From: Candidatus Omnitrophota bacterium
GTDB lineage: Bacteria; Omnitrophota; Gorgyraeia; Aquiviventales; Aquiviventaceae
DNA length: 44,602 nucleotides
NCBI GenBank assembly: GCA_023247275.1
Contig: JAHFGT010000011.1
Location: forward strand, 1-44,602
Direction: 5' to 3'
Shown here: positions 10,010-12,160 of the stretch, in pieces
Layout of the letters: each line of letters starts with the position of its first letter
How positions within the stretch are numbered: the stretch's first letter is position 1
Position numbers and translations under genes: made by a program
The notes under the pieces: model-generated
What the model saw: the letters and a program-made list of their open reading frames with translations, nothing else
Databases searched by the model: none
What the model was told of the DNA's origin: nothing

Positions 10010-10453
10010 CTAGGCGTTCGAGACTGGAGTTACGATGAGCGTGCGGGCACGGTCGTTGAACGTCATGAGAAACCGATCGAAGAATCCGGCCCGGCCCATC
10101 AAATTGAACCGCATGTGCAGCGCGTCGGAAAATCCGACCGGCGCGAGAAACTCCTGCCCGGCGAACCGGACCCGGATCTTCTGATAGTAAATCGGCAGCA
10201 CCGCCCCGTTGCCCAGCGAGACATACCGACGTTTGGCCTGACGGAGTTTGATCCCCAAGAGCTGAGCGACATCCAGGTGGAACACGCTCCACGATGCGCC
10301 AGAGTCCACATACGCCTGGAGGTACAACCATCGGTTCCCAGTCCAGGCCTGCAGATACACGATCGGCGCATACCGGCCGGTCGCATCCTTCATATAGTGA
10401 AATGCTAGACGGCGCAAGCCCTGCGCCTTTGACGCGGCAGAGCGACGAGGCAT
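10010..10453 (-). CDS. Retropepsin-like aspartic protease family protein
   Basis: A small clan AA-type protein of 147 residues. The core YVDSGASWSVF, with Asp50 in the DSGAS motif, matches the active-site loop of single-domain retropepsin-like proteases, which act as dimers. Flanking strands (APIVYLQAW before it, RRYVSLGNGAVLPIYY after) fit the fold. The ATG at 10453 overlaps the aroK stop as TGATG, implying translational coupling; ATG at 10390 is a later alternative. The coupling is notable because aroK carries a C-terminal domain that resembles DUF5678. The substrate is unknown. Confidence 0.75.
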   Translation of the reverse strand: MPRRSAASKAQGLRRLAFHYMKDATGRYAPIVYLQAWTGNRWLYLQAYVDSGASWSVFHLDVAQLLGIKLRQAKRRYVSLGNGAVLPIYYQKIRVRFAGQEFLAPVGFSDALHMRFNLMGRAGFFDRFLMTFNDRARTLIVTPVSNA

Positions 10454-11172
10454 CAACGCGCCGGTGCGAGTTCCCCAGGCAACGGGATATAGTAAATGCC
10501 GGCGTCCGGCTTGCCGGTCAAACGGGACGGCGTGTTTTGATACGCTTCAAGTTGCGTGTCGCCGGAGCCGACGACGCGCTCATCGATCATCACCACGTAT
10601 TTGCCTCCATACCGGCGCGAGAGCTGGTCTGCATGGTCTAACAGGTATTGCCAACTCTTACATTGATAGGCGCTGAACTGGTGCCACAATTGCTCCACGA
10701 CCTGTTCCAGGGTCACATCACTGGTATCGATCATGATATCTGCGCGCGCATAGCTGGCGGCTCGCTGGGCCAGCAAGGTTTTGATCCGCACGAGCGGATC
10801 CTGGTGGCCTTTGAGCAACGGTCTGACGTGCAACCGCGGACCCAGACGCGCCACTAACACCTTGGGCCGAGCGGTCAGGCACACCACTGGACCGGTGAAC
10901 TTCAACCGTGTGCGATTGTGCGGATCTAAAAATGCGCCGCCGCCGGTGGAAACCACCTGATGATCCTTCCGGACGATTCGACTAATGCACCGGCGTTCCA
11001 ACCGGCGAAACACCGCCTCGCCACGCTCCGTAAAAATCGTGGCAATCGACCGACCAGCGCTCAGCTCGATGAGCTGATCAATATCAACAAACTGCCAGCC
11101 CAGCCGCTTGGCCAGCCGCTTACCGACGCTGGTCTTGCCGGTGCCCATGAACCCGGTAAGGATGATGTTCAT
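10453..11172 (-). CDS. aroK: Shikimate kinase with a C-terminal DUF5678-like extension
   Basis: Phosphorylates shikimate in the chorismate pathway. The kinase domain covers residues 1-166: P-loop GFMGTGKT at 7-14, Asp30/Asp32 for shikimate and magnesium, FRRLE at 55-59, GGGAFLD at 77-83, and lid RPLL with Arg117. Typical shikimate kinases stop near 170 residues; this one runs to 239. The extra part (about 167-239) contains RYGGKYVVMIDERVVGSGD and KPDAGIYYIP, the pattern of the small DUF5678 domain. The aspartic-protease-like gene is coupled directly downstream. A heptad-repeat array lies just upstream of the start. Confidence 0.93.
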   Translation of the reverse strand: MNIILTGFMGTGKTSVGKRLAKRLGWQFVDIDQLIELSAGRSIATIFTERGEAVFRRLERRCISRIVRKDHQVVSTGGGAFLDPHNRTRLKFTGPVVCLTARPKVLVARLGPRLHVRPLLKGHQDPLVRIKTLLAQRAASYARADIMIDTSDVTLEQVVEQLWHQFSAYQCKSWQYLLDHADQLSRRYGGKYVVMIDERVVGSGDTQLEAYQNTPSRLTGKPDAGIYYIPLPGELAPAR

Positions 11173-11235: not shown

Positions 11236-11667
11236 CTAGGTAGTCGGGGGCTGGTGGCGGGGGTGCCAAAACGTCCGAAAAGTTGACGCCACCTGAGGGA
11301 TGCGTTCGAAATCTCGGTCTGCATGCCAGAGTGGAACGTCGTAGCAGAGTGCCGTAGCTGCAATAAGGACATCTGGTGACGGAACCCGACGCCCCGCCTG
11401 CCCCAGCGCCGCGCTCAACTCCTCGGCCCTGGCCCATTCTCGTCGACCGGCTGACAAGCAGTGCACGGCATCAAAATCGGCTCGAAATGCCTTGAACTCC
11501 TCACCTGTCTTGGCACCGCCGATCACTTCAAGCCGAATCATCTCCGTCACCGCAGCTTGATTTGATTCAAGCAGCGCCTTGAGCGTCATTCGAAGCGCGG
11601 ACGAGGTGTATGGACTGAAACCCTCGATCCAGATTGAGGAATCGACCAATACCAGCGGATCAGCCAC
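11236..11667 (-). CDS. vapC: VapC-type PIN-domain toxin
   Basis: A putative ribonuclease toxin of 143 residues. PIN-domain acidic residues are in place: Asp9 in LVDSSIW, Glu in RLEVIGG, Asp in SPDVLIAATAL, and Asp in ADRDFERI. It starts with GTG at 11667 and overlaps the end of the antitoxin gene by eight bases, the usual arrangement in vapBC operons. The target RNA cannot be predicted. Confidence 0.88.
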   Translation of the reverse strand: MADPLVLVDSSIWIEGFSPYTSSALRMTLKALLESNQAAVTEMIRLEVIGGAKTGEEFKAFRADFDAVHCLSAGRREWARAEELSAALGQAGRRVPSPDVLIAATALCYDVPLWHADRDFERIPQVASTFRTFWHPRHQPPTT

Positions 11668-11860
11668 GTCGGCGCAGTCTTAAGAGTTCCCTACGGGAGA
11701 TCATGTTCGTGTGCCCAATCCGCCCCGCCAGCCGCTTGAGATGCTCGCGTCGAATGAGCTCGTGCAGTGAATGCTCGATCAGTTCTCGCTTACTTCTCGG
11801 CCGCACCAACTGCCACGCTTCTCTCAAGAGGGAATCATTGATGTCAATTGTCGTTCTCAT
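11660..11860 (-). CDS. vapB: VapB-type antitoxin
   Basis: A 66-residue antitoxin that starts MRTTIDINDSLL, the typical ribbon-helix-helix beginning of VapB proteins (VapB_antitoxin/AHH-type), followed by a basic C-terminal half (about 25-66) expected to wrap VapC. AGAGGT lies eight bases before the ATG. Directly upstream is an AT-rich palindromic promoter region where the VapBC complex probably represses its own operon. Confidence 0.85.
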   Translation of the reverse strand: MRTTIDINDSLLREAWQLVRPRSKRELIEHSLHELIRREHLKRLAGRIGHTNMISRRELLRLRRRG

Positions 11861-11874
11861 CGTATGTGACCTCT

Positions 11875-11910
11875 ATGCATAATATTAACATATTTTGTTA
11901 TGCATTTCAA
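11875..11910 (-). promoter_or_regulatory. vapBC promoter with a palindromic operator
   Basis: Inverted repeat ATGCATAA (11875-11882) and TTATGCAT (11898-11905), perfect over eight bases each. On the minus strand a TTGAAA -35 (11905-11910) and TAATAT -10 (11882-11887) are spaced 17 bases apart and overlap both arms. The site also covers the last codons of the upstream AbrB-type gene, whose stop is at 11885. Autorepression by VapBC is inferred from the layout. Confidence 0.6.
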
Positions 11911-12160
11911 CCATCCTACTGCCGCGTCGACAAATCAAAGCAGCCGGCTCACCTCGTCGGTCCTTGAGGAGGCTGTCGGTAAACTTCAGCCCCTTGTACA
12001 GGCCGCGCATGCTTTTGATCGGGTCTTTAGCAGCCGGGACAACCCGGATTCCATTCCCCGTATCAATCCAGATGAGTTTCGTGTGAGTCTTGAGTCTATA
12101 CTTGCGTCGCAGTGCAGCTGGAATAACCGTCTGCCCTTGCTTCGTGATTGTCGTTTCCAT
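11885..12160 (-). CDS. AbrB/MazE-type (SpoVT-AbrB domain) antitoxin, orphan
   Basis: A 91-residue protein whose first 45 residues (METTITKQGQTVIPAALRRKY, then LIWIDTGNGIRVVP) form a SpoVT/AbrB swapped-hairpin DNA-binding domain. The C-terminal half (KDPIKSMRGLYKG...) resembles antitoxins normally paired with PIN or MazF toxins. No toxin of its own follows; the next genes are a complete vapBC pair. It begins 12 bases after aroC, so it may be read from the aroC transcript. It may be an antitoxin that lost its partner, or it may act on the neighbouring VapC. Confidence 0.75.
   Translation of the reverse strand: METTITKQGQTVIPAALRRKYRLKTHTKLIWIDTGNGIRVVPAAKDPIKSMRGLYKGLKFTDSLLKDRRGEPAALICRRGSRMVEMHNKIC

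Follow-up and report, generated by a model that had tools for sequence, protein, structure and literature searches.

A shikimate kinase fused to a DUF5678 domain beside a retropepsin-like gene points to a recurrent protease-partner pair

Why should a shikimate kinase carry an extra C-terminal domain and be followed, with a one-base overlap, by a gene for a small protease related to those of retroviruses? This arrangement lies on contig JAHFGT010000011.1 of an Omnitrophota genome, of which we analysed positions 1 to 44,602 (the window, 44,602 nucleotides; Table 1). The family that carries the fusion consists of uncultured groundwater bacteria. The first-pass annotation proposed that the extra domain is one half of a functional pair, that the protease is the other half, and that the partner became attached to AroK. 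We asked whether the fusion is real, whether domain and protease belong together elsewhere, and what their association may mean.

Table 1. Features of the aroK-retropepsin locus, in positions of the window
Feature	Position	Strand	Basis
Shikimate kinase domain, AroK residues 1-166	10675..11172	-	Pfam SKI match, conserved motifs
C-terminal AroK tail, residues 167-239, predicted aa-bb-a-b	10456..10674	-	AlphaFold2 model; kept in 20 family genomes
DUF5678 (PF18929) match, AroK residues 183-230	10483..10626	-	hmmscan
TGATG overlap, aroK stop / retropepsin start	10451..10455	-	Sequence
Retropepsin-like aspartic protease, 147 aa from ATG	10010..10453	-	PDB profile match; fold match
Catalytic DSGA motif of retropepsin	10295..10306	-	Invariant in all family copies

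The aroK ORF (11172-10453, minus strand) encodes a product of 239 residues. The Pfam profile SKI (PF01202) covers residues 9-164 with 142 bits against a cut-off of 22.1, in agreement with the kinase end that the first-pass annotation had placed near residue 166. The P-loop GFMGTGKTS, D32, R57, the glycines at 77-79, R117 and R137 are all present, and across 19 family copies all these positions are invariant or nearly so. The fused kinase is the single AroK match found in the source genome by homology search. The 73-residue tail had been described as DUF5678-like, and this holds: the matched segment scores 32.0 bits in hmmscan against a curated cut-off of 23.2, and the tail scores 34.8 bits in a genome-wide search with the DUF5678 profile, which matched none of 14 control genomes. 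The tail is thus above the cut-off of PF18929, a family of unassigned function that differs in being otherwise almost always stand-alone. Stand-alone members, which make up nearly all of our survey, are proteins of about 60-90 residues, and in related genomes outside the Omnitrophota family that carries the fusion the DUF5678 ORFs are likewise short stand-alone genes.

The AlphaFold2 model of the tail (mean pLDDT 87.6) starts with two helices, continues with a beta hairpin and ends with a helix and a strand. The first helices lie directly C-terminal of the kinase; since these conserved helices are contiguous with it, no dispensable linker is evident. They contain conserved W and Y residues, which stand-alone DUF5678 members also tend to have. 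Foldseek returned no significant PDB match to the tail model. The nearest models in a viral library include DUF5678-annotated proteins (TM about 0.6, E 4e-3 to 1e-2, probability 1.00), a weak but consistent indication from predicted structures that the tail may share its fold with other DUF5678 proteins. Pandoraviruses are among the organisms that encode DUF5678-annotated proteins (BFVD models A0A2U7UG46 and A0A2U7UD66). Two further candidate relationships were rejected. A ubiquitin-like fold, by analogy with Ddi1, was set aside as Foldseek gave only insignificant deaminase-like matches, and a HMMER match to beta-lactamase inhibitory protein II had no significant single stretch and comprised 15 residues of a repeat protein.

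The adjoining gene had been called retropepsin-like, and DSGA motif, family profile and predicted fold now agree on this assignment. The aroK TGA (10455-10453) and the protease ATG (10453-10451) have one base in common. The product contains AYVDSGA and the hydrophobic-hydrophobic-G motif NLMGRAGFF; the motif D and G and the later G are invariant in an alignment of 48 retropepsins from several phyla. Alone, the 147-residue protein scores below the Pfam aspartyl-protease cut-offs (20.5 vs 24.3 and 20.6 vs 28.2 bits) and far below that of NCBIfam TIGR03698, which we regard as a limit of the profiles and not as a defining property, because the motif and the fold are both present. Four paired relatives (L116, L126, L147 and L003) exceed the RVP or Asp_protease_2 cut-off. 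In a PDB search, a profile built from the 48 relatives finds Ddi1 and retroviral proteases at E values of about 1e-8, with 5e-8 for Ddi1. Structure comparison of the AlphaFold2 model (pLDDT 91.9) gives the Rickettsia retropepsin 5c9f (E 5e-7), HIV-1 protease (E 1e-5) and Ddi1 (E 7e-5) as matches. The single-domain size of the protease implies that it would act as a dimer.

The fused protein was used to search 27 assemblies of the family, most of them incomplete. An AroK match was found in 21, and 20 of these carry the DUF5678 tail, in every case with a retropepsin directly next. The exception (G004) has an unfused kinase of 179 residues with no tail, and nowhere in its assembly is there a match to DUF5678 or to the retropepsin. 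Since 20 genomes share this architecture, with fused proteins 54-66% identical along almost their whole length, the AroK-DUF5678 fusion with its adjoining retropepsin is confirmed as real and far beyond chance. The usual gene order is aroC, aroK:DUF5678, retropepsin and dprA, with aroC upstream in 18 of 20 loci and dprA downstream in 16 of 20 within the available flanks. Mean pairwise identity is 64% for the kinase, 58% for DUF5678 and 75% for the retropepsin, the most conserved of the three parts. In close pairs, the tail and the protease have dN/dS values of about 0.1-0.25. Kinase, tail and protease are all under purifying selection. Two observations concern individual copies. In one genome (L056 / G022:C2:3664-4410) the kinase part contains an in-frame TGA, either an assembly error or decay. 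In the window itself, positions 11236-12160, between aroC and aroK, hold a VapBC pair and an orphan MazE/AbrB-like antitoxin gene, which were not found at the same place in the other 19 fused loci.

Family-wide conservation together with selection excludes a recent accidental read-through. An older accident is the simplest alternative: the aroK stop codon was lost and the kinase was joined to a neighbouring DUF5678 gene, without AroK and the protease becoming functionally connected. DUF5678-retropepsin cassettes stand beside many unrelated genes, as described below, so the fusion could plausibly have arisen from a chance neighbour. However, a functionless tail would be lost, and this one has been kept in about 19 genera, with conserved gene order and with selection on both the tail and the protease. 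We consider a passive fusion very improbable.

To place the pair in a wider context, DUF5678 ORFs were collected blind to their neighbours from 99 relatives, from three further phyla (sets of 197 genomes centred on a Syntrophoarchaeum, 247 on a deltaproteobacterial MAG and 240 on a Patescibacterium) and from the genomes behind the loci of a collection scan. After deduplication, 156 distinct ORFs from Omnitrophota, Patescibacteria, the deltaproteobacterial phylum and several archaeal groups had their loci read. A same-strand retropepsin lies immediately downstream of 127 of them; of the rest, one is fused to a retropepsin, one is truncated by a contig end and 27 have no visible protease. The proportion paired is still about 80% when the 20 AroK copies are left out. 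Several of the 27 adjoin a decayed or very diverged protease. With about one fifth of the ORFs lacking a detectable protease, DUF5678 may also have other roles. The source genome itself has a second DUF5678 gene, likewise followed by a retropepsin; a gene for a trypsin-like protease lies just upstream of this second pair (L002:1855-2568).

The association also holds from the side of the protease, although the queries for this direction derive from paired proteases and so sample only that subfamily. In a reverse scan of a contig collection covering archaea and bacteria of other phyla, DUF5678 is directly upstream of all 14 retropepsin loci, so the statement in the first-pass annotation that stand-alone DUF5678 genes often neighbour such proteases is borne out in both directions. 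DUF5678 stands beside 37 of the 46 strong retropepsins of the relatives, with a diverged DUF5678 beside five more, and beside 27 of 32 in the archaeal phylum. Genome by genome, 19 of the 197 archaeal genomes have both, three have DUF5678 only, none has a strong retropepsin only and 175 have neither (Fisher p about 1e-23). Most of the weaker clan AA proteases in these genomes, which serve as an internal negative control, lack DUF5678. For collection scans, a broad alignment of retropepsins proved too diverse and was set aside.

The two genes frequently overlap: -1 or -4 overlaps (TGATG or ATGA), typical of translational coupling, occur in 61 of 126 pairs. Distances among DUF5678 sequences correlate with those among their partners (r = 0.38; the best of the permuted values was 0.12), which in part reflects shared descent. 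No flanking family recurs in more than three of 70 upstream or two of 72 downstream neighbours, and in the absence of recurring flanking genes we regard the pair as an autonomous cassette. Several loci depart from the usual form. One ORF from the Patescibacteria survey (L182:1105-1680) has a segment with zinc-ribbon-like CxxC motifs fused ahead of DUF5678, and a retropepsin gene comes next. Three tandem DUF5678 genes precede one retropepsin in an Omnitrophica WOR_2 MAG (L077 / G104:C100:1122-1880). In a single case, an archaeal ORF (L126:649-1245, G299:C60), DUF5678 and RVP are in one chain, both above their Pfam cut-offs; a relative 91% identical to this fusion (L200) lacks the protease part.

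Based on these observations, we suggest, with a probability of roughly 60%, that DUF5678 is a dedicated partner of the retropepsin and that the AroK tail binds and tethers the co-translated protease. Physical binding between DUF5678 and the retropepsin is what we infer from their linkage and from the fusions. DUF5678 would then be the partner of a small homodimeric retropepsin, with a translationally coupled two-gene cassette as the default form. In the ancestor of the family, such a cassette may have stood directly behind aroK, and its DUF5678 half may have become the C-terminal domain of the shikimate kinase. By binding the protease as it is co-translated, the tail would hold it at AroK, where it would presumably act on AroK or on something located there. 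The outcome could be conditional turnover or processing, which would link protease activity to flux through the shikimate pathway. Within the pair, DUF5678 could serve as a targeting adaptor, an inhibitor or both. Characterised bacterial retropepsins act with protein partners (PMC11957791). The proposal that the partner of a functional pair was joined to AroK is thus well supported, as the tail passes the family cut-off and the neighbourhood recurs strongly.

The same cassette could be read as a toxin-antitoxin-like system, in which the retropepsin is a toxic protease, DUF5678 is its antidote, and the module became fixed in the aro operon when the antidote was joined to an essential enzyme. 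Its organisation fits such a system: two small overlapping genes with DUF5678 first, forming an autonomous cassette of patchy distribution, present in up to 14 copies per genome among idiosyncratic flanking genes. One locus with three tandem DUF5678 copies ahead of one protease fits too. Intact DUF5678 genes repeatedly stand beside decayed proteases, some of which lack the active-site segment (L007, L105, L130, L133, L136 and L141), and intact proteases without DUF5678 are fewer; this asymmetry keeps some weight on an antidote, though it is only suggestive because the search design favours intact DUF5678. Against these features, a toxin could be freely lost once its antidote was locked into AroK, yet in the 20 genomes no other part is as well conserved as the protease. 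A fused antidote would have left the protease free to decay, and for this reason we favour functional control over a purely selfish role. Further points weigh against it: the queries tried recovered no relatives from plasmids, phages or viral contigs, DUF5678 has no PADLOC family, and no DNA-binding fold was seen among the PDB structure matches of the DUF5678 model. A survey of toxin-antitoxin systems (Makarova 2009) contains no aspartyl protease module. Overall, an addiction system of this kind appears unlikely, though it carries more weight than the other alternatives. Two related candidates were rejected: identity of the partner proteases with PADLOC PDC-M08B/M52B, for which the protease matches are weak and DUF5678 has none, and a phage, plasmid or viral origin of the pair, with the outcome of the relative search just given.

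DUF5678 might instead be a substrate of the retropepsin, or a zymogen-like prosegment, so that the AroK tail is removed or AroK itself is processed. Prosegments of aspartic proteases sit N-terminal to the protease, and this is where DUF5678 is found in the archaeal fusion; tandem DUF5678 copies adjoining one protease would also suit a substrate. The fused copies argue otherwise. Conservation is continuous between the kinase and the first helices of DUF5678, with no separate conserved linker, the tail model is helical from its start, and the tail has been kept as a folded, constrained domain. We judge a substrate or prosegment role improbable, more so than a toxin-antitoxin-like one.

Among known systems, RimB-RimK of Pseudomonas is the nearest precedent for the pair: a small clan AA protease whose dedicated partner is encoded with it and can be fused to it in one polypeptide. 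RimK is an ATP-grasp glutamate ligase, the substrate is polyglutamylated RpsF, and the two activities can reside in one fused enzyme (PMC11957791). The partner there is thus an ATP-grasp ligase and not DUF5678, and the AroK-adjoining protease matches no NCBIfam aspartic-protease model at cut-off. Its neighbours are aroK and dprA, with no rimK or other ATP-grasp ligase gene next to it. APRc (ApRick) of Rickettsia conorii (PDB 5c9b, 5c9d, 5c9f) is the best structural match (E 5e-7, TM 0.61/0.67), but is only about 20% identical to the AroK-adjoining protease, and the abstract of the APRc paper does not mention a DUF5678 partner (PMC4140852). Eukaryotic Ddi1, which is among the best PDB sequence-profile matches, similarly ties a retropepsin fold to a recognition domain; it differs in having ubiquitin-like and UBA domains, whereas ubiquitin is not among the best PDB matches of the DUF5678 model. 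A shikimate kinase with a C-terminal fusion partner is also known from the bifunctional AroK-AroB enzymes (NF010556, NF010627). In these, however, the partner is 3-dehydroquinate synthase, a pathway enzyme, while the tail described here has no enzymatic family match, and AroK-DUF5678 scores far below the cut-offs of both models.

A search of the open-access literature, with subscription papers and preprints outside its scope, found neither a functional account of DUF5678 nor a description of the DUF5678-retropepsin pair, an absence that is no proof of novelty. DUF5678 now looks like a dedicated partner of an HIV-protease-like enzyme, which would give a family of unassigned function a specific, testable role. 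The survey reveals a recurrent cassette in uncultured bacteria and archaea, and the fusion to AroK, as a natural experiment, identifies one site at which a protease of this kind is deployed. These results bear on the roles of single-domain prokaryotic relatives of retroviral proteases, few of which have been characterised so far. A bolder and rather doubtful extension is that the pair is an ancient, undescribed protease-based control or addiction module of bacteria and archaea, whose guard or antidote has been fused so that a shikimate kinase restrains an HIV-protease-like enzyme. Another biosynthetic-operon setting for retropepsins is seen at two loci (L240 and L242; G074:C61 and G098:C23), where the protease gene, here with no DUF5678, lies between bioA and a ubiE/menG-like methyltransferase gene, both named by eye.
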